Positions 9,488 through 56,814 of a stretch of 64,000 bases of DNA are shown here, piece after piece. The notes below the pieces were generated by a model. That model saw nothing but the letters and a program-made list of their open reading frames with translations. It had not been told where the DNA came from and made no database searches. The stretch is from Arbacia lixula (taxonomy: Eukaryota > Echinodermata > Echinoidea > Arbacioida > Arbaciidae). The stretch lies in NCBI GenBank assembly GCA_963669155.1, contig OZ022587.1, forward strand, positions 23,503,074 to 23,567,073. The letters are read 5' to 3'. How positions within the stretch are numbered: the first letter of the stretch is position 1; every line of letters begins with the position of its first letter. The position numbers and the translations under genes were made by a program.

Positions 9488-10099
9488 CTTATGAATTGAA
9501 CAAGACGCACAAAGTCAAGACATCTGAATGGCTACAATAATTAAGCGTATTGCGATAAACATGTCAAATGTAGTTTGAAATTCCTTTAGGAGATTCAAGT
9601 TTATCATTTGATATAAACATGTTTTTAAGTCGGGATCTCATTACTGATTACAACATATCTCCTTATCAAAGTTTGATTTAATCGTGCAACTAGTCACCAT
9701 TATCGTTTTGATACAACTCCATCGAGGACACTAAAAGTGCTTAAATTATGAAATGTATATTTGTGACCAATATAAGCATGCCTATTGACATTTTACATTA
9801 TGACGGTGACATTTATACGTCGAATTGCTTTCGTTTGCATCTTTTGGTTAGCGGTGCAATTCTGTAATTGAACCGTGGCCTGCGGTAAAAAGAAAATATA
9901 ACGCAAGAGTTAAACGTCGTTTTGTTCACCTTCTTTTTTTTTTTTTTTTTTACCAGCCAGGACTTATGAATTCAATAACATTTCGTGCACTAAGGGTTCA
10001 TGGGGTTGAGATGTGACAGGTACTTTCCTATGGGTCTGTCTAAAAAGAAATGAGCTGATGAGAAAAAGAAATAAATCACATTCCGATTGCCCATCTCAC
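9488..10099. other. Intron between NACHT and first LRR exon
   Basis: The interval has a poly(T) run near 9,931-9,951 and otherwise AT-rich sequence. It is bounded by the donor CTG/GTGAGA at 10,100 and the acceptor at 9,488. I see no other feature in it. Confidence 0.6.
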
Positions 10100-13263: not shown

Positions 13264-14136
13264 CAGGCGGGGGGGGGGGGTCGGATGGGTTTGGATCTGG
13301 GTATTAGTAATTCTAGTACTACTCAAAGAGGGCTCAACCATTTGAGGGCAAGTCCACCAAGACCAACCCCCTCCCTATCCCCTGATTTTTAATATAAATT
13401 GTCACTGTAAACCAACAGCAACAACATTTTTTTTCATTGCTCTTGTACCTTCGTTTATGAGGAAGTACATTGGATCAAGTGCATTTAATAATAATGATGA
13501 TAATGATGATGGTTATGAAGATGATGATAGTGATAATGATGGTGATGGTGATGGTGTTAATTAATGTTATGGGGAAAATTATAAGGTAATTGCCTAATTA
13601 ACATTGAGTAATCTTGATAAAAACTCAATGTCAAACAGAAATTGGGAAATGTTCTTACTGCATTATGAGACAATGTGTATCATGTGTGTGTATGTGTGTG
13701 TGTGTGTGCGTGAGAGAGAGAGAGAGAGAGAGTGTGTGTGTGTGTGTGTGGAGATTGTGATTGTGTCTTTCTGTGTGCACTCACCAAACAGTTGTGTTTG
13801 GTTCATACGTCATATTCTATAGCCGTTCCGAACCAGTGTGGAAACACGACAATTACTTTCACATTTGATTGATAGTTCAAAGTAGTAGTCATTCATTTGA
13901 CTTGCCATACACTCAGAAACAGCATGATAAATATGTAATACCTTTATCCTTAAATGTATCTATAATACATACCCTTTAAGCTTAAACTGTACTCTTGTTA
14001 AGCTTTAGAATAGCGCAACGCACTGAATAGTGCAGAATGTCCCAAATAGGTTATTGATAGGATACTGACGGCATTACATATTATGTTTAATACAATTACT
14101 TCTCAAATTGTGTAATCACTGTTAACTCTATCCAAA
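13035..14136. other. Start of the 18.9-kb intron, microsatellite-rich
   Basis: Contains a (GT)n run with a G-run at 13,195-13,280, a (GAT)n-like patch near 13,490-13,557 and a compound (GT)n-(GA)n-(GT)n run at 13,683-13,750. The short open frames across these are low-complexity artefacts. No exon is supported. Confidence 0.7.
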
Positions 14137-14706
14137 TTGTATTATCTGGACACCACACACGCATGTGTACGATATGCAACACGATACGATATACGTACGA
14201 TATACAATGCCCTTATACTGCCGTATCTGGATTATTGTAGCCTGGTCTGGTCAGGCACGAGTTCAAAAAATCTAACCCGCTTATTTGTTCTCCAGAAGAA
14301 AGCCATTCGATTATGTACCAACTCAATTACTTTGCCCATTCTTCTCCACTTTTTCAAAGAAGTACATACTTTAACTATTCATGATCGTATATTGTTCAAA
14401 CTCGGAGTCTTTGTTTTCAAATTTCTAAATGGGTTATTGAAACATGTTTTGACCGATTATTTTGTACAATATTCCCAAACCCATACTTTTGATACTCGTA
14501 AAAGTGATAATTTTGTCTTGCCGTTCCGTCGTTTGCATCTAACACAATCAAATTCTATTCAGTTTAAGGGAGCTAAATTTTGGAACTCTTTCGATTCAAA
14601 TATTAAACATCTTAATTCTATCAGTAACTTCAAAAGCCAATTAAAAAACACTTCTTGTCTCTTTATTAGTAATAACTGTAATAACTTACTCATTATTCTT
14701 TTTTAG
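14137..14706 (+). mobile_element. Non-LTR retrotransposon fragment, C-terminal RT region
   Basis: A 189-residue open frame reads IRTIYNALILPYLDYCSLVW, then LFVLQKKAIRL, LFKLGVFVFKFLNG and a closing FWNSFDSNIKHL and FKSQLKN. This is the region downstream of the RT catalytic motifs in Jockey/CR1-type elements (Y-x-x-x-I-x-P-x-L-x-Y-C, L-x-x-L-Q-K-K-A-I-R). The frame ends at a natural-looking stop, but the catalytic part is missing upstream, so it is a 5'-truncated copy. It lies inside gene A's large intron, in the opposite orientation. Confidence 0.8.
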
Positions 14707-14890
14707 TGCGTGATATGGAGTGCCGAGGTGTGACGTCGTTTGAGCATAGTTGCCGGGACAACTGGTTCTAAACCATGCGGGTCGAGCAAACAGCGATTAT
14801 CACAGCGGGGGCTGTGATAGGGATTGCTCGACACTAGCCCGATAGACAATATCAGACCGCTAAGCCTCTCACTGGCGTGAGTTTGAGCCG

Positions 14891-16315
14891 ATGGTGTTGA
14901 CCGCATGCTCATGTCATACATGTGGCGACACCACTTCGGTGCTACAATGGTTGCACTCATATCTCACTGGCTGGACATCTCGTGTTAAAATATCAGAGCA
15001 AGTTTCAGCTCCTTGGACTTGCGAATACGGTGTCCCCCAAGGGTCTGTTATGGGCCCTATACTCTTCAATGTTTATATCACTCCTGTGTCAACTATAATT
15101 CGTAAGCACAATCTTTTCTATCTTATCTATGCCGATGATATTCAACTATATGATGCGTTTGATCCTCGTTCACCATCAAGTATGCAAGAAGTGTTAGAAA
15201 GAATTTCGTTATGTATTGCTGAGATAAACACGTGGATGACTTCAAATTTCCTCAAACTAAATGTTTCTAAAACTGAATTCACTATACTATGTCGGAAAAA
15301 CCAATTCAATGAAAATCTATCCAACGTAAAACTCAATGTATGTGATAATGAAATTGCACTATCCTCTTAAGTTAAGAATCTTGGCATATGTATTGACTCG
15401 TGCTTTACACTCTCATCTCATGTCAGTAATACTGTACGTACCTGTAATTTCCATCTTAAGAATCTGTGGCGCATTAGAAGATTTATCAATGAAAAAACTT
15501 GCCATCATGCAGTTAGGGCACTTGTACTTTCTCGACTTGACTATTGTAACAGTCTCTTTTCAGTTCTTTGTGTTAAAGATCAGAAAAAACTTCAGAGTGT
15601 TCAGAATCGTGCCGCACGTTTAGTGTTTTCAGTTGGTCGCAATATACATACGTCTCCTTTGATTAGGGAACTCCATTGGCTCCCTTTTTCTCAACGTGTC
15701 AAGTTCAAACTTTGTACATTTATAAATTGATTAACAGTACTGGTCCTTCATATCTTGTAAACGCAATTGCTCATTACACACCTGCTCGTAATCTACGTTC
15801 CGTAAATGATACCACCAAACTTGTTATTCCGAGAACAAACCTCTCCATAGCAGAAAAACGTTTTAGTATAGCTGGATCTAGAGTTTGGAATACACTCCCC
15901 TCTTCCATCCGAACAACACCGACCATATCATCGTTCAAACGACAACTCAAGTCATATCTTTTTCCAAATATCTAGTTTTATATTTTCATTTATTTAATGT
16001 GTATTTGTTTTGATGATTTTTGCTATCACTATTTGGTTTGACTTGGCTAACCCATCTGGGGCCTGGTGGCCTCAAGTGCTATACTAGAGCTTCTGTGAAT
16101 AATGTGCTGACCGGGCTTGTCCCTTAAATTGTTGGTGAACGAAGCAGCAAGCAAGAGGCCACCAGGCCTCATCTGGCACAGTTGAGAACTCCAATGGTTG
16201 ATGCAATTTAATGTATATATTTATATTTTATATCTGATTGTAAGCGCTGTGATACTTTTTGTGTATAGCGCAGATAAATAACCATTATTATTATCATTAT
16301 TATTATTATTATTTT
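14891..16315 (+). mobile_element. CR1-like non-LTR retrotransposon, 5' truncated and inactivated
   Basis: The reverse-transcriptase palm motifs GVPQGSVMGPILFNVYI (about 15,029-15,079) and YADDIQLY are present, then LKLNVSKTEF. An in-frame TAA at 15,367-15,369 breaks the frame, after which the same frame goes on with VKNLGICIDS, LDYCNSLFSV and LQSVQNRAARLVF. A frameshift near 15,705-15,725 separates this from YKLINSTGPSYL, NLRS, SRVWNTLPSSIR and FKRQLKSYLF, with the final stop at 15,973-15,975. The 3' UTR ends in an (ATT)n tail at 16,275-16,313. With one stop, one frameshift and no endonuclease domain it cannot move by itself. It is a different subfamily from the fragment just upstream. Confidence 0.88.
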
Positions 16316-31962: not shown

Positions 31963-32126
31963 CGTTGATCAGGACCATTCGGACCGGGGTTCCTTTCTAC
32001 GTCCCCAGCCTGCAGAAGAAGCTCTTCCTCGACGTGTGAGTTGTTCTCAATGATAGAAACATCATCCTTGCTCCAAGTCCGCTGTGCTTTACAGTTGGGC
32101 GATAAAGCAATGGTTGTCGGTGTAAC
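31963..32126 (-). CDS. Gene A, exon encoding a 2A-like translational recoding motif
   Basis: The exon starts after gtttcttccag with GTT ACA CCG and ends at CG followed by GTGAGAAT. It encodes 54 residues and two bases of an Arg codon. Near its end it reads EEELLLQAG then DVERNPGP, then NGPDQ. The last eight residues match the consensus D-V/I-E-x-N-P-G-P, which makes ribosomes release the chain after Gly and resume at Pro without a peptide bond. The Leu-rich run and Gly before Asp are also typical. Pro would be the first residue (281 in model numbering) of the receptor, only seven residues before the Death exon sequence. 2A-like motifs at the start of NLR proteins have been reported in the purple sea urchin. 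Phase 2 here and one leading base in the Death exon agree. Confidence 0.82.
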
Positions 32127-32628: not shown

Positions 32629-33324
32629 TAATGCCGCTTCAAGACTTCCAACCAGCTCAAGCGAAGTCGCATGCACATCAGATCCAATGGAGGTGTCCAT
32701 CCCAGCTTTGCAGTTAGGACTTTTGGTTGAAGTATCAGAACAATGCTGCTCGCTGTCGCTATCAGTACTCGATCCTGGAGTAGGTTTGTGATGGCTGTAA
32801 TCGCCGTCCGTTGCTGGCGGCATCGTGGACGATAGGCTTTCATTTATCGGATGATGTCGCGAATCACCTGATTGGTTAGACAAATTCAGTGTGGAGTTTG
32901 GAGGTGATGCAAGAGAGGTCCCTCCTCCAATACAAGGAATGTCGCCGGAGTCAGCGTCGTTCGCCTCGGGGTCACTTTTTTCCTGGTTGCATGTGTCACT
33001 TGTTTTGGATGGGTCCGTAGAAGATCGAACTGTTTTTTCTTCTGCATCCGCGTCACCATGAGAGGATTTGTCGCGGTTGGTTGACGATGCTTGGTCAGCT
33101 GTTTGACTATTTGAGCCGCGGACCCCATTCAGCGGTTCACATTCTTTATTGTTTTGTTCGTCATTGTTCTTACCAGCATCATTGCACTTTTGCTGGAACT
33201 TTTCTTCAATCAGGTCAATAAATTGTTGAAACAACCTGGTCTGCCGCTCAATCCAGACTTCCTTCCTGGTCCGCTGGAGGAAGCATCCGATGCGGGCCCG
33301 CCACTCTCCAATCGAGACCGGCAT
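32629..33324 (-). CDS. Gene A, leader exon with WRARIG motif and acidic Ser/Thr-rich tail
   Basis: The chosen start is ATG at 33,324-33,322, giving MPVSIGEWRARIGCFLQRTR. An upstream in-frame ATG (33,363) is not used, because a good acceptor, ttgctctgccacag, lies between them (exon start about 33,333). After the W-R-A-R-I-G motif there is a charged helical stretch (RLFQQFIDLIEEKFQQK). About 170 residues rich in Ser, Thr, Asp, Glu, Asn and Pro follow, with no predicted fold, membrane span or signal peptide. The exon ends at ATTA followed by GTAAGAGT, phase 0, after 232 codons. From memory, similar W-R-A-R-I-G starts precede 2A motifs in several uncharacterised sea urchin and amphioxus proteins. 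With the 2A site it would be released as a separate leader polypeptide of about 280 residues. Its function is unknown. Confidence 0.75.
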
Positions 33325-37900: not shown

Positions 37901-39068
37901 GTCATCGAAGACTACTGCATACACACATTCTTAATGACAATTCTACTCCTTCCCTGCTTTCTCTGGTGAACAAATAGTTTACTTGAGCTCCCCCCCCTAC
38001 TATTCAAAATACATATAGAAAATATTCCTATACAAATAATTATTTTTAAGTCAATGGGCGAAAGACCTACTTGGCCAGATAGAGGTGTTTGAATGGGGGA
38101 GGTAGATGATGAAGCAAGAGAGGGGAGAAGAAATAGTGTAAGGGGGGAGGGGGATCGAAACAGGGGGACTGCTTCTCTTATCTACAAATAAATTATTAAT
38201 CAACAAAAAAAAAATATTACTTCTGCTGTACTGCAAACATTGTATTAATTTGAGTGTTCTCTGGATGATCAAAATGCATGTCTTATGCAATATTCTCATC
38301 CAGGCTGGCATTTGTCAATGAAGAGGATTATCCTAAGTGGATGTGGCAAATGGTACAGAAAGGTGCTACAGCCAATGAATACTTATCATAGTCATTTACA
38401 AAATCCAAATAACACATATAAAGAAGATCGATATTAATCGACTCAAAGAAAAAAGTCAATATATTCGCTGTGGTAACTTTTGTTAATGTGACAATGTAAA
38501 CCAAGGCCAGAAGAACATAAAATCATAGTGCATATCACTTCAAAGCTATGTAGCGCACACTAAATAGCTGACTAGATGACATAAACACGTATGTATAGTG
38601 CACAGATTATCCTGTAAACCGAGGCATGCGCACTTTGCGCAATTTTACTCCTGATAACATGTATTATATCTTGTTTATTATCTTAACGCATATATGAGAG
38701 GCAAACAAACGACCAATTGCATGATGCGTCATTGTCAATATTTATGACAATTGAGTCACGTGATTTTGACAATGGCGGGTATGATCAAACATACAAGGTT
38801 TATACAATCGTCTGTATAATCAGACGTACAAGGTTTACTTCTTGCAGAATATCGGCAGTGTTTACTGCCCCTGCCAAGTAAAGTTGAATTAAAGTCAAGT
38901 CAGCCTAAAGTGGCTTTGAGTCAACTTCACTCGGCATGTCGGTATGATGTTGGCATAATATTTCCTAGTTAACCTGACCCCCTCTACTTTTACCTAGGGT
39001 TAGTTAACCTGACCCCCTCTACTTTCACCCCTATTAAATGGGGTGTAACTGCGAGACAGCATCTGCAG
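34933..39068. other. Intergenic stretch without a supported gene
   Basis: Contains G and C homopolymer runs (35,281-35,293 and 35,409-35,416), a short gcggccacct-type repeat at 36,000-36,130, an (AT)n run at 37,311-37,325, and a 37-bp-spaced direct duplication of a sequence containing aacctgaccccctctacttt at 38,971-39,026. Overlapping short open frames near 35,229-35,940 have no recognised domain. Confidence 0.45.
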
Positions 39069-40866
39069 TAGAAGTAGAAGTAGTAATAATAGTAGTAGAA
39101 GTGGTAGTATTAGTATTAGTGGTAGTAGTAGTAGTAGTAGTAGTAGTAGTAATATTATTAGAATTAGCAGTAGTAGTATTAGTAGCAGTAGCAGCAGCAG
39201 CAGTAGTATTAGTAGTAGTAGTAAAAGTAGTAGTAGTAGTAGTAGTAGTAGTAGCAGCAGTAGTAGTAGTAGTAGTAATAGTACTAGTAGTAGTAGAAGT
39301 CGTCATAGTAGTAATAGTAGTAACTGTAGTAAAAGTAGTAGAAGTAGAAGTAGAAGTAATAGGAGTAGAAGTGGTCGAAGTAGTATTAGCTGAAGTAGTC
39401 GTAATAGTAGTAGTAGCAGTAGCAGCAGTAGTAGTAGCAGTAGTAGTAGAAGTAGTAGTAGTATTAGTAGTAGTAGCAGCAGCAGTAGTAGTATTAGTAG
39501 TAAAAGAAGTAGTAGTAGTAATAGTACTAGAAGTAGTAGAAGTAGAAGTAGTAGTAATAGTAGTAGAAGTGGTAGTAGCAGTATTAGTATTAGTAGAAGT
39601 AGTAGTAGAAGTAGTAGTATTAGTAGTATTAGTAGTCGTAGCAGTAGTAGCAGTAGTAACAGTAGTAATAGTAGTAGCAGTAGCAGTGGTAGGAGTAGTA
39701 GTATTAGCAGTAGTAGTAGTAATGGTACCAGTAGTAGTAGTATAAATAGTAGAAGTAGAAGTAGTAATAATAGTAGTAGAAGTGGTAGTATTAATATTAT
39801 TATTATCATTATTATTATTATTATTATTAGTAGTAGTAGTAGTAGAAGTAGTAGGAGTAGTAATAATAGTAATAATAGTAATAACAGTAATAATAGTAGT
39901 AAAATTAATAGTAGTACTTGTAGTAATAGTAATAGTAGTATAAGTAGTATAAGTAGTATAAGTACAAGCAGTAGTAATAGTAGTACAAGTGGTAGTATCA
40001 GTACTAGTATTAGTAGAAGTAGTAGTAGAAGTAGTAGTAGTAGTATTAGTAGTAGTAGTAGTAGTAGTAGTAGTAGCAGTAGTAATAGTAGTAGCAGTAG
40101 CAGTAGTAGGAGTATTGGTAGTAGTAGCAGTAGTAGTAGTAATGGTACTAGTAGTAGTAGAAGTAGTAGTAGTAATAGTAGTGTAAATATTAGTGATAAT
40201 AGCAATAGTAGTAGTAGTAATAGTAGTAGCAGTAGTGTTAGTAGTAGTAGTAGTTGTAGTAGTAATAGAAGAAGTAGTAACAGTAGTAGAAGTAGTATTG
40301 TAGAAGAAGAAGTAGTAGTAGTAGTAGTAATGTTATTAACAGTAGTAGAATTAGTAGTAGTACTTGTAGTGGTAGCAATAGCAGTATAAGTAGTAGAAGT
40401 AGAAGTAGTAGTAATAGTAGTACAAGTGGTAGTAGCAGTATTAGTATTTGTATAAGTAGTAGAAGTAGTAGTATTAGTAGTTTTAGTAGTAGTAGTAGTA
40501 GCAGTAGTAATAGTAGTAGCAGTAGCAGTAGTAGGTGTAGTAGTAATAGCAGCAACAGTAGTAGTAGTAGTAATGGTACTTGTAGTAGTAGAAGTAGTAG
40601 TGGTAGTAATAGTAGTGTAAATAGTGGAAGTAGAAGTAGTAATAATAGAAGTTGAATTGGTAGTAATAATATTAGTATTAGTATTATTATTAGAAGTAGT
40701 AGTAGTAGTAGCAGTAGTAGTAGTAGTACTTGTAGTAGTAGAAGTAGTAGTAGTAGTAGAAGTAAGTGGTAATAGTAGTAGTAGTAGTGGTAGTCGTAGT
40801 AACAGAAGAAGCATTTATAGCCATGCTAGTATTGGTAGCAGTATTAACAGATCTGGTGACAATTTC
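39069..40866. repeat. 1.8-kb compound (AGT)n trinucleotide tract
   Basis: Almost the whole segment is made of AGT/TAG/GTA triplets with AGC, AAT, AGA and ATT variants kept in register. Long open frames on both strands (poly-Val/Ile on plus, poly-Leu and poly-Thr on minus) exist because the repeat is a triplet with few stops in those frames, and they are not genes. At nearly 1.8 kb it is very long for such a tract. Confidence 0.95.
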
Positions 40867-48931: not shown

Positions 48932-50840
48932 ATTGTACAGGGACATGACTACATGCCTATTGTACAGGGACATGACTACATGTCTATTGTACAGGAACAT
49001 GACTACATGCCTATTGTACAGCGACATGACTACATGCCTATTGTACAGGGACATGACTACATGCCTATTGTACAGGGACATGACTACATGCCTATTGTAC
49101 AGGGACATGACTGCATGCCTATTGTACAGGGACATGACTACATGCCTATTGTACAAGGACATGACTACATGCCTATTTTACAGGGACATGACTACATGCC
49201 TATTGTACAGGGACATGACTACATGCCTATTGTACAGGGACATGACTACATGCCTATTGTACAGGGACATGACTACATGCCTATTTGACAGGGACATGAC
49301 TACATGCCTATTGTACAGGGACATGACTACATGCCTATTGTACAGGGACATGACTACATGCCTATTGTACAGGGACATATCTACATGTCTATTGTACAGG
49401 GACATATCTACATGCCTATTGTACAGGGACATGACTACATGCCTATTGTACATGGACATGACTACATGCCTATTGTACAGGGACATGACTACATGCCTAT
49501 TTTACAGGGACATGACTACATGCCTATTGTACAGGGACATATCTACATGCCTATTGCACAGGGACATGACTACATGCCTATTGTACAGGGACATGAATAC
49601 ATGCCTATTTTACAGGGACATGACTACAAGCCTATTGCACAGGGACATGACTACATGCCTATTGTACAGGGACATGACTACATGCCTATTTTACAGGGAC
49701 ATGACTACATGCCTATTGCACAGGGACATGACTACATGCCTATTGTACATGGACATGACTACATGCCTATTGTACAGGGACATGACTACATGCCTATTGT
49801 ACAGGGACATGACTACATGCCTATTGTACAGGGACATGACTACATGCCTATTGTACAGGGACATGACGACATGCCTATTGTACAGGGACATGACTACATG
49901 CCTATTGTACAGGGACATGACTACATGCCTATTGTACAGGGACATGACTACATGCCTATTGTACAGGGACATGACTACATGCCTATTTTACAGGGACATG
50001 ACTACATGCCTATTGCACAGGGACATGACTACATGCCTATTGCACAGGGACATGACTACATGCCTATTGTACATGGACATGACTACATGCCTATTGTACA
50101 GGGACATGACTACATGCCTATTGTACAGGGACATGACTACATGCCTATTGTACAGGGACATGACTACATGCCTATTGTACAGGGACATGACTACATGCCT
50201 ATTGTACAGGGACATGACTACATGTATATTTTACAGGGACATGACTACATGCCTATTGTACAGGGACATGACTACATGCCTATTTTACAGGGACATGACT
50301 ACATGCCTATTGTACAGGGACATGACTACATGCCTATTGCACAGGGACATGACTACATGCCTATTGTACATGGACATGACTACATGCCTATTGTACAGGG
50401 ACATGACTACATGCCTATTGTACAGGGACATGACGACATGCCCATTGTACAGGGACATGACTACATGCCTATTGTACAGGGACATGACTACATGCCTATT
50501 GTACAGGGACATAACGACATGCCTATTGTACAGGGACATGACTACATGCCTATTGTACAGGGACATGACTACATGCCTATTGTACAGGGACATGACTACA
50601 TGCCTATTGTACAGGGACATGACTACATGCCTATTGTACAGGGACATGACTACATGCCTATTGTACAGGGACATGACTACATGCCTATTGTACAGGGACA
50701 TGACTACATGCCTATTGTACAGGGACATGACTACATGCCTATTTTACAGGGACATGTCTACATGACTATTGGACAGGGACATGTCTACATGCCTATTGTA
50801 CAGGGACATGACTACATGACTATTGTACACGGACATGTCT
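48932..50840. repeat. 27-bp minisatellite, about 70 copies
   Basis: The unit is acagggacatgactacatgcctattgt with a few recurring variants (ttttacagg, ttgcacagg, ttgtacatgg, acgacatg, atatctac). Because 27 is a multiple of three and the unit lacks stops in several frames, open frames of up to 610 codons run through it on the plus strand, with a nine-residue period (YRDMTTCLL in one frame, HDYMPIVQG in another), and shorter ones on the minus strand. No start context, splice structure or domain suggests translation. Variant units recur at spacings of about 297 bp (11 units), showing higher-order duplication. Confidence 0.97.
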
Positions 50841-51033
50841 ATGATGTACACGGACAACACAACCCACATACATACAGTCATTCAACTCGATTGATGTACA
50901 AAAAATATTCGATCCTTTAATTTGTAAAACAAAACGCTACGATGAAGTAGTTTCGATGTATCAAATAGTATTGATTTAAACATGAACTTAGACTTATAGG
51001 CATATTCATGAGGACATTTACACATCTGCCAAC
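50841..51033. other. Flank between the minisatellite and copy B
   Basis: This flank (ctcgattgatgta, acgatgaagt words) is similar to the sequence following the tiny 27-bp remnant in copy B at about 52,920-53,040, so it belongs to the duplicated unit. Confidence 0.5.
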
Positions 51034-53988: not shown

Positions 53989-56814
53989 TGGCCTTGTTAC
54001 ACCCACAAATGTAATAACGCCCACAAATGTAATAACGCCCACAAATGTAATAACACTTTACCCACAAATGTAATAACGCCCACAAATGTAATAACACTTT
54101 ACCCACAAATGTAATAATTTCACCCACAAATGTAATAATGCACTTTACCCACAAATGTAATAATTTTGAACCACCCACAAATGTAATAATCACTTTACCC
54201 ACAAATGTAATAATTTTTTGGGGATATTTTGTCGAGTTTCTTCAAAAGTGAAACCCTGTACTGATGCATCGGTATAGCGCGCAGTCTTTATTCCAGACCC
54301 AATTATAGGCCCGATCACCTTCTCTCTGTGGAAAAACGCGAGAATGGAGCCTAGTCTTTCCTCCAGACCCGAAAATTTCAAAAATTAAGAACTTAGTCTT
54401 TTTTTCAGACCCAATTTTTTCATTTTTGGAATCTTCAAAACCAAGGCCCAATCGTCTTATTTTTGTGGAATAACATGAGAATCGAGCCTAGTCTCTCCTC
54501 CAGACCCCATATTTTAAAAAAAAGAGCGTAGTCTTTTTCCAGACCCAATTTTTTCATTTTTTGAATCTTCAAATCCAAGGCCCGATCATCTTATTACTGA
54601 GGGACAACCTGATAATCGAGTCTAGTCTTTCCTCTAAACCCGATTATTTAAGAAATGAGAGCGTAGGCTTTTCTCCAGACCCGTTTCATTCATTTTTTAA
54701 ATCTTCAAAACCAAGGCCCCATCATCTCACTCCTGTAGAATAACATGAAAATTGAGTCTTGTCTTTCCTCCAGACCTGGTTATTTCAAAAGTAAGAGTGT
54801 AGTTTTTCTCCAGACCCAATTATTTCATTTTTTCAATTCTTCAAAATCAAGACCCCGTCATCTTTATCTTATGAAATAACGTGAGAATCAAGCCTAGTCC
54901 TTCCTCCAGACCCGATTATTTCAAATTATTGAGCGTAGTCTTTTCTCCAGACGCAATCATTTCATTTTTTTCAAATGTTCAAAACCAGGTCCCCATTATA
55001 TTTTTCTTGAGGAATAACATGGTAATAGAGCCTAGTATTTCCTCCAGACCCGAGTAGTTCAAAAATAAGAGCGTAGTCTTTTTCCAGACCCAATTACTTC
55101 GGGTTTTTTTTAAATCTGCAAAACCAAGGCCCTATCATCTTATTCTTGTGGAATAACATGAGAATCAAGCCTAGTCTTTCATCCAGACCCGGTTATTTCA
55201 AAAGTAAGAGCATAGTCTTTTCTGCAGACCCAATTAATTAACTTTCTAAATGCATGGCATCGCTTAACAATGTTAAGCGATGCCATGCATCGCCAAGAAA
55301 TGATGATGGCACTGATGAGTACTTAGAATGCACTAAATCCACCTTTTGTAGATGCTCAAAGTACTTAATTGAAAAGAAAAAAGAAAAAACAGGAATGAGA
55401 TAATAGCCTAGCTAACAAAAAAGAAACGTGCATATATGCATACATACTCACACATGCATTCATATACGCACACATACCCTAATCCTATACTTACCTATCC
55501 TAATCATTCTTACCCTATCCTTCTCCTATCGTATTTTAACACCCTCACTAGTACTACGGCAATATGCTCTACAAAATATTGCACTCAATTAGGTGGCATT
55601 TATTTTTTTAATGTCTAAATTTCAAAACGTTTATTGGAATGTATGCTTAAATATTCCTTCTTTCTAGTTATATGCCGGTTTTCTATTCAAATGTTCAAAA
55701 ATATGACACAAGTCAATACGCCTAATGCATGCATGTATAGTCAAAAACAGCAGCGTACTGATACTACTTTTGAAATAACTGGGTCTGGAGGAAAGACTAG
55801 GCTCTATTACCATGTTATTCCACAAGAGAAATATAATGGGGCCTTGGTTTTAAACATTTGAAAAAATGAAATAATTGCGTCTGGAGAAAAGACTACCCTC
55901 TTAATTTTGAAATAATCGGGTCTGGAGGAAGGACTAGGCTTGATTCTCATGTTATTTCATAAGAATAAGATGACGGGGTCTTGATTTTTTTAAGAATTGA
56001 AAAAATGAAATAATTGGGTCTGGAGAAAAGACTACACTCTTACTTTTGAAATAACCAGGTCTGGAGGAAAGACTAGACTCAATTTTTATGTTGTTCTACA
56101 GGAGTGAGATGATGGGGCCTTGGTTTTGAAGATTTAAAAAAAATGAATGAAATGGGTCTGGAGAAAAGCCTACGCTCTCATTTTTTAAATAATTGGGTTT
56201 AGAGGAAAGACTAGACTCGATTATCAGGTTATCCCTCAGGAATCAGATGATCGGGCCTTGGATTTGAAGATTCAAAGAATGAAAAAATTGGGTCTGGAAA
56301 AAGACTATGCTCTCTTTTTTTTAATTATCGGGTCTGGAGGAGAGACTAGGCTCGATTCTCATGTTATTCCACAAAAATAAGACGATCGGGCCTTGGTTTT
56401 GAAGATTCCAAAAATGAAATAATTGGGTCTGGAAAAAAAGACTAAGTTTTTATTTTTGAAATTTTCAGGTCTGGAGGAAAGACTAGGCTCCATTCTCGCG
56501 TTATTCCACAAAGAGAAGGTGATCGGGCCTATAATTGGGTCTGGAATAAAGACTGCGCGCTATACCGATGCATCAGTACAGGGTTTCACTTTTGAAGAAA
56601 CTCGACAAAATATCCCCTAAAAATTATTACATTTGTGGGTAAAGTGATTATTACATTTGTGGGTGGTTCAAAATTATTACATTTGTGGGTAAAGTGCATT
56701 ATTACATTTGTGGGTGAAATTATTACATTTGTGGGTAAAGTGTTATTACATTTGTGGGCGTTATTACATTTGTGGGCGATTATTACATTTGTGGGTGTAA
56801 CAGGCCTCCTTAAA
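53989..56814. mobile_element. 2.8-kb foldback transposon E2 (TU-like)
   Basis: Arms of about 1.05 kb (53,989-55,066 and 55,768-56,814) are inverted copies. The outer part of each is a cluster of cacccacaaatgtaataa words, 8-9 copies per side. The inner part is a tandem array of diverged units of about 110-120 nt with the words ctcctccagaccc, gagcgtagtctt and ttcaaaaccaagg. The 8-mer CATGTATA sits at 53,981-53,988 and 56,815-56,822 as a target duplication. The centre (55,067-55,767) holds further units, a 41-nt palindrome and unique DNA. No transposase was recognised. The open frames in the arms are repeat artefacts. It was inserted between duplicated segments B and C. Confidence 0.8.
55250..55290. 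repeat. Perfect 41-nt palindrome in the centre of E2
   Basis: 19-nt arms (atgcatggcatcgcttaac and its exact reverse complement) surround a 3-nt aat loop. It lies near the symmetry axis of the element. Confidence 0.9.

Follow-up and report, generated by a model that had tools for sequence, protein, structure and literature searches.

A putative StopGo (2A) exon between a hydrophilic leader and a Death-NACHT receptor in the sea urchin Arbacia lixula

Introduction

The window analyzed here, a 64,000-nucleotide stretch of the Arbacia lixula genome (C12:23503074-23567073), carries on its minus strand a short exon whose peptide ends in a 2A-like sequence, and which stands between an open reading frame for a leader and exons for Death and NACHT domains. 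This locus raises the question of whether the exon belongs to a host immune gene and, if so, what a 2A sequence would do between a leader and a receptor. On the basis of the observed anatomy, splice phases, repeated genomic linkage, and some sequence selection, we propose that this exon provides a host immune gene with a functional 2A (StopGo) element, so that each message would give a separate leader and a separate receptor; judged from sequence, we place the probability of this reading at about 0.82.

Results

Anatomy of the locus

The leader exon (33333-32629, minus strand) comprises 9 nt of 5' UTR, an ATG at 33324, and 232 codons, and it exits in phase 0 at the donor GTAAGAGT; an acceptor-like CAG is present 9 nt 5' of the ATG. 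The N terminus of the leader reads MPVSIGEWRARIGCFLQRTRKEVWIERQTRLFQQFIDLIEEKF, and its tail is rich in Ser, Asp, Thr, Gly, and Asn. The 2A exon (164 nt; 32126-31963, minus strand) is entered in phase 0 and left in phase 2, and is flanked by TTCTTCCAG on its 5' side and by GTGAGA on its 3' side. Both of its splice sites, namely the acceptor CATGTTTCTTCCAG|GTTACA and the donor CAACG|GTGAGA, were graded good. Its frame 0 encodes VTPTTIALSPNCKAQRTWSKDDVSIIENNSHVEEELLLQAGDVERNPGPNGPDQ with two bases over, and the peptide closes with ...EEELLLQAG-DVERNPGP, which confirms the in-phase exon described in the initial annotation.

The core octapeptide DVERNPGP (32003-31980, minus strand) holds the single NPGP of the window in all six frames. 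In the available part of PMC12846837, the StopGo core is given as (D/G/C/N)(V/I)ExNPGP, Gly is strongly preferred before the Asp of the core, and Leu-rich upstream motifs ending in (A/S/C)G are described among StopGo elements. The window peptide agrees with this description in that (i) DVERNPGP falls within the core definition and (ii) the preceding LLLQAG places a Gly before the core Asp and forms, as judged by eye, a suitable Leu-rich hexapeptide. At the core's variable position the window has Arg, which does not appear in the list of residues that viruses prefer there. The predicted break falls between Gly280 and Pro281; the leader and the 2A exon up to NPG amount to 280 residues, a count that bears out the receptor N terminus proposed earlier, Pro281.

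Past NPGP, the unspliced frame of the window meets a stop at the splice donor, with no endonuclease or reverse transcriptase in frame. Judged by splice phase alone, in the window and in five compact copies, the 2A reading frame continues downstream. The Death-domain exon of the window (13034-12772, minus strand; Pfam Death, 38.6 bits; cut-off, 22.6) is preceded by the acceptor TATACCAG and ends at the donor ACAG|GTACAA; its join to the 2A exon reads CG|A, the two leading bases coming from the 2A exon. The phases of the Death donor and the NACHT acceptor (TTCCGCAG) agree, and the NACHT exon (11658-10076, minus strand; Pfam NACHT, 74.2 bits; cut-off, 26.7) ends either at a candidate donor after 10100 (CTG|GTGAGA) or at a stop ending at 10076. 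The 18.9-kb intron between the 2A and Death exons (31962-13035, minus strand) holds a reverse-transcriptase fragment on the opposite strand (14864-15370, plus strand; Pfam RVT_1, 58.7 bits), with a second piece (14116-14706, plus strand) that gave no Pfam match.

Three repeats were seen elsewhere in the window: a minisatellite at 48932-50841 (27-bp unit, 70.7 copies, 95% match), in which long open reading frames run on both strands; an inverted repeat at 54061-56776, with outer arms of 462 nt that are 96% complementary and 136/137-bp tandem units on both arms; and an AGT array (3-bp unit) at 39067-40801 (578 copies, 73% match), open in several frames.

Exon joining in related copies

Six loci were checked for a 2A donor together with a Death acceptor; five hold both, and the sixth (L027) is without a Death exon. 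In these five compact copies on C17 (L022, L028, L031, L036, and L079), the exons lie ~0.4-0.5 kb apart and the phase is identical in all five: the 2A exon ends with DVETNPGPNE and two bases, followed by GTGAGT, and the Death exon, preceded by a pyrimidine stretch and CAG, opens one base ahead of its frame. The phase match between the 2A and Death exons that had been noted for the window is therefore found in these copies alike. Among eight close copies, seven share the Death acceptor TACCAG|ACC, the eighth having been missed by the recognition pattern.

At least six copies of the 23-residue 2A core, including that of the window, are identical in the genome, and at least two more show 89% identity over 19 residues. 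A wider comparison covered 38 2A exons from four groups, which represent 22 distinct 48-nt sequences. Gly precedes the core in all of them, and the upstream sequence is Leu-rich in three groups, this context being preserved across subfamilies A to C despite synonymous change. That the core residues D, E, N, P, G, and P do not vary is partly by construction, because this pattern served to gather the copies.

Three near-identical leader-2A-Death copies (L029, L032, and L033; C17, 18.54-18.55 Mb) lie 6 kb apart; their NACHT match is fragmented with a TAG, and their leader and 2A are open. They form a recent tandem array of receptors that are probably broken. The NACHT match in both C22 copies of the window family contains one TAG each, so these copies may also be broken.

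Genome-wide linkage of leader, 2A, Death, and NACHT

The genome searched was the window's own (607 Mb, 590 contigs). Its mitochondrial contig carries LSU rRNA, COX1, a tRNA, ND4L, and COX2 in this order (ND4L and COX2 labelled by eye), an arrangement typical of sea urchins and sea cucumbers; the mitochondrial frames are open with genetic codes 9, 5, 13, and 24 and broken with code 2, and the code by itself is not decisive. As a DNA pattern, D(V/I)ExNPGP gave 74 matches, as against 0 for the backwards control and ~0.4 expected by chance (independent bases, window GC). Because the similarity searches score the best candidates only, counts for large families are lower bounds: the leader query gave at least 34 matches, the Death exon at least 51, and the NACHT exon at least 91 rows, which merge into at least 74 genes. 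Within 30 kb on the same strand, and going by the leader and Death matches listed, the 74 2A sites divide into 34 with both leader and Death, 6 with Death only, 1 with the leader only, and 33 with neither. The last group is in part made up of mobile elements or other receptor groups.

Viewed from the neighbouring exons, 40 of the 51 Death matches listed (40 of the best 43) are preceded by a 2A at up to 22 kb on their own strand, and 33 of the 34 leader matches listed have a 2A within 5 kb. Death lies downstream of a 2A on the opposite strand at 0/74 sites, and upstream of a 2A on the same strand at 3/74, as tandem clusters would give. Recurrent linkage together with matching phases indicates that leader-2A-Death-NACHT is a real gene family. 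Since the copies are gene-family duplicates, they do not represent independent events; the linkage counts nevertheless show that the arrangement was retained. The single gene proposed earlier is thus upheld from the leader through NACHT, by the 34 sites with leader and Death and the 6 more with Death, whereas its LRR portion was not confirmed, the best LRR-like piece in the window (~4.3-4.5 kb) having no Pfam match.

Among the 74 merged NACHT genes, 46 have a 2A within 40 kb upstream, where random gene placement would give a probability of ~0.0024, and none has one on the opposite strand. All 46 are at least 36% identical to the window NACHT: a 2A is present in 41/45 genes at ≥46% identity, in 5/5 at 36-45%, and in 0/24 below 36%. 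This split indicates that the 2A marks one receptor clade. Four NACHT matches at ≥36% identity have no 2A, and three of them are apparently intact, so the 2A is dispensable in receptors of this kind. Three Death-NACHT genes of 53-56% identity show no exact 2A within 30-40 kb and no leader match; the 5.7-7 kb upstream of three 2A-free Death-NACHT genes contained no leader and no accepted 2A, and one such locus (L080) has an isolated NPGP without the D(V/I)E part.

The leader provides a further linkage marker. Exact WRARIGxF occurs at 25 genome sites, with 1 in the backwards control and ~0.65 expected. Measured against the 43 of the 74 2A sites that were taken for receptor type, all 25 precede such a 2A on its own strand, at no more than 3 kb in 24 cases and at 21 kb in the other. 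The sites belong to the window family, to the C17 family, and to a further group on C12, which lies at 1.05-1.75 and 8.76-8.89 Mb; among the four 2A sites that this group has at 1.06-1.75 Mb, one is without a nearby exact WRARIGxF. At two loci (L057 and L058), a pair of WRARIG sites precedes one 2A exon each (C12:8762418 and 8764128, minus strand; C12:8887705 and 8889738, minus strand), with spacings of 1.7 and 2.0 kb; these pairs are perhaps alternative or duplicated leader exons.

Other 2A groups and the question of a mobile-element origin

As stated in the initial annotation, 2A in non-LTR retrotransposons is in print, reportedly through Odon et al. in 2013, and it also occurs in the window's genome. 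Our sorting of 2A sites into receptor and mobile-element types covers the first 30 listed of the 74, together with separately examined loci. At 11 of these 30 sites, a PHD-like finger or endonuclease region follows the 2A (the labels being our own reading), and in all 11 the 1.5 kb upstream is free of WRARIG-like sites.

Two further sets, with one or two members inspected in each, have a Death-like exon after the 2A. The C12 group at 9.51-9.83 Mb gave 22.8 bits for Pfam Death (cut-off 22.6), with no WRARIG-like site seen within 1.5 kb, and the copy at 8.76 Mb gave 16.6 bits, below that cut-off. At L085 (C12:1057050-1064500), a Death-like piece follows the 2A, as judged by eye, with no NACHT match near; this is possibly a receptor that has lost its NACHT.

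The five other closest copies of the window locus have 14-22 kb between motif and Death, the two C22 copies have 2.5 and 7.3 kb, and 21 of the 29 C17 sites have 0.5-0.8 kb. These distances bear on the alternative that the leader and 2A exon lie upstream of the receptor by chance, as an independent gene or as what is left of a mobile element. A 19-kb intron with a reverse-transcriptase fragment between 2A and Death in the window copy would suit this explanation, as would the 2A sequences that apparent non-LTR elements of the same genome carry. We nevertheless consider it very improbable, because (i) 34 to 40 copies repeat the order on a single strand, (ii) 2A and Death are so close at those 21 C17 sites, with phase agreement in the five copies tested, (iii) the 11 element-type 2As are without a WRARIG-like site in the 1.5 kb upstream, and (iv) the exact leader motif was found exclusively upstream of receptor-type 2As. 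A retrotransposon origin of the 2A exon was rejected by linkage and phase.

The leader protein

Full-length leaders of the window family number at least eight, that of the window included, with 77-100% identity and no stops. An acceptor-like AG lies 9 nt 5' of the ATG in 8/8 of these copies, and of 22 other copies tried, the pattern recognised the ATG in 18, of which 17 show the same AG. The first 45 residues are conserved between the window family and the C17 family, and the W, I, and F of the leader are invariant in ten chosen sequences from three subfamilies.

Searches with the leader matched no known family. The whole exon gave no Pfam family at E 0.01, and ten N-terminal pieces gave one match, to DUF5601 (E 0.035); NCBIfam gave none, and the best PDB match had an E of 1.7. 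Among viral contigs, the leader pattern picked out 25 stretches, none of which was confirmed. In the open-licence literature, 'WRARIG' returned one match, a calcium channel judging from the title.

Known sea urchin 2As suggest another role for such a sequence. The available part of Roulston et al. 2016 (PMC4981915) gives a 2A for 85 of 241 S. purpuratus NLRs, which puts in print the N-terminal 2A-like motifs of sea urchin NLRs that the initial annotation mentioned; 14 listed entries have 26-residue N-terminal sequences, with 12 predicted signal sequences. Dual targeting is described for the S. purpuratus NLR 2As; by analogy, the sequence before the window 2A might act as a signal, the unskipped receptor being secreted. 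This type is apparently present in the same genome, since at L083 (C22:4208000-4212000) the hydrophobic, signal-like MDTRPPEPRGGAGALALLLVLLLLLLLRCGDVETNPGP stands directly before a 2A that is followed by a Death exon, in a Death-NACHT gene (C22, 4.21 Mb) with 46% identity to the window NACHT. The window leader, however, is hydrophilic: its top 19-residue Kyte-Doolittle mean is 1.34, at residue 222 of 280, as compared with 2.56 for the C22 sequence. We therefore regard dual targeting of this kind as highly unlikely for the window gene. A signal sequence in the window leader was rejected, no hydrophobic stretch of that strength being present.

Selection on the leader, 2A, and Death exons

Pooled Nei-Gojobori dN/dS across the eight close copies was 0.35 for the 2A exon, 0.52 for Death (seven of the eight copies, one acceptor being unrecognised), and 0.69 for the leader (0.58 in the first 50 codons and 0.72 in the rest). 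For the six closest copies, the ratios were 0.155, 0.65, and 0.79, respectively, with 0.78 in the first 50 leader codons, and one copy pair gave ~1.0 in that segment. These ratios indicate that the window-family 2A exon is clearly constrained and the leader weakly so; with such weak constraint, the leader might be a spacer. In the C17/C8 set, with identical leaders and 2A exons counted once and leaders lacking a recognised donor trimmed to at most 215 codons, 21 distinct leaders gave 0.42 in the first 50 codons and 0.71 in the rest. The 17 distinct 2A exons of that set gave 0.63 overall and are not strongly constrained, in a data set where the L022 donor is probably misplaced and 2 of the 17 2A windows include a few intron bases.

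The pattern of constraint also bears on whether skipping takes place, as the motif could be translated without it, leaving leader and receptor in one polypeptide. The context dependence of 2A activity favours this possibility to some degree, but subfamilies A to C retain the core and its Leu-rich context, in contrast to the drifting leader tail, and we consider a single fused product improbable.

Discussion

Proposed mechanism

In our preferred reading, a working 2A in a host immune gene, splicing would join the leader (232 aa), the 2A exon, Death, and NACHT in one frame, in the window copy across 19 kb. The nascent LLLQAGDVERNPG would then block formation of the Gly-Pro bond, the 280-residue leader would be released ending in NPG, and translation would resume at Pro281, giving a receptor that starts ~14 residues before the Death fold. 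Each message would thus be expected to yield two proteins, leader and receptor, at ~1:1, possibly with some fused product, and the free leader may be a partner or regulator of the co-made receptor. An NPG-ended leader and a Pro281 receptor are expected from the fit of the motif to the StopGo rules and from the ~80% recoding reported in the available part of PMC4981915 for one S. purpuratus NLR 2A assayed in vitro, a qualitative estimate. Since a large, flexible leader in direct fusion with the Death domain would be likely to hinder Death-Death assembly, the 2A may mainly serve to keep leader and Death apart.

Skipping might instead be partial, as the initial annotation proposed, giving a tuned mixture of free and leader-fused receptor whose ratio would act as a control layer, perhaps shifted by translational stress. 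That ~80% value is a precedent for partial skipping, and a stress link through eEF2 is proposed for the S. purpuratus NLR 2A in the same portion of that paper. On the other hand, four assayed upstream motifs, one of them Leu-rich, gave ~92.7% to almost 100% in the available part of PMC12846837, which suggests high efficiency and leads us to favour near-complete separation over a tuned mixture. Moreover, the Gly before the core is constant in 38/38 exons, and graded core variants were not seen, though the search pattern would miss them. Control through the ratio is possible in our analysis, but it is less likely than near-complete separation, and we hold the tuned mixture as a tentative and somewhat unlikely alternative.

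Near-complete separation could be taken further, to an operon-like family in which each message would give a receptor and a dedicated WRARIG partner in equal amounts, with the 2A as a sensor of translational attack. We regard this extension as rather doubtful. Under it, a pathogen that disturbed elongation or release would alter the form of the receptor, because separation would depend on normal translation. If it were true, the WRARIG partner may guard, chaperone, or restrain its receptor.

The significance of the locus lies in a 2A that sharply marks one NLR clade and is accompanied by a leader that matched no known family and was found only with this 2A. This gives a testable claim, namely that receptors are co-made with a partner protein, which would go beyond a signal-type 2A curiosity. 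For the role of 2A, one genome further offers a natural series of leader-type, apparently signal-type, and 2A-free Death-NACHT genes.

Comparison with known systems

StopGo in cellular coding sequences is described as very rare in the available part of PMC12846837. For StopGo in cellular genes outside mobile elements, our literature searches, as far as the texts were available, gave the S. purpuratus NLRs, and the open-licence literature, to the same extent, did not describe any leader made as a protein of its own ahead of a 2A.

With viral StopGo/2A sequences, as presented in the available part of PMC12846837, the window shares the D(V/I)ExNPGP core, the Gly before Asp, and a Leu-rich hexapeptide; it differs from them in belonging to a host gene, in having its own exon, and in the Arg at the variable position. 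The 2As of non-LTR retrotransposons, including those in elements of the window's genome, have the same core motif, but there a PHD-like finger and endonuclease share one frame with it, the upstream sequence is another, and no WRARIG-like site lies within 1.5 kb.

Like Death-NACHT-LRR (NLR) receptors, the window gene has Death and NACHT domains above the Pfam cut-offs; unlike the usual ones, it encodes an extra leader product in front. The one LRR-like piece of the window is without a Pfam match. Its closest parallel is the S. purpuratus NLR 2As (PMC4981915, available part), which likewise place a 2A core ahead of a Death-NACHT receptor in an echinoderm. The characterised S. purpuratus 2As are sequences of ~26 residues at the extreme N terminus, mostly predicted as a signal, whereas 280 hydrophilic residues from a separately spliced leader precede the break here; those S. 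purpuratus 2As that lie inside the N-terminal region may include leader-type copies. As far as the available parts of these sources go, a 2A in echinoderm Death-NACHT-LRR genes is thus known, and what is new is the ~280-residue hydrophilic leader, without a recognised domain, that precedes it.
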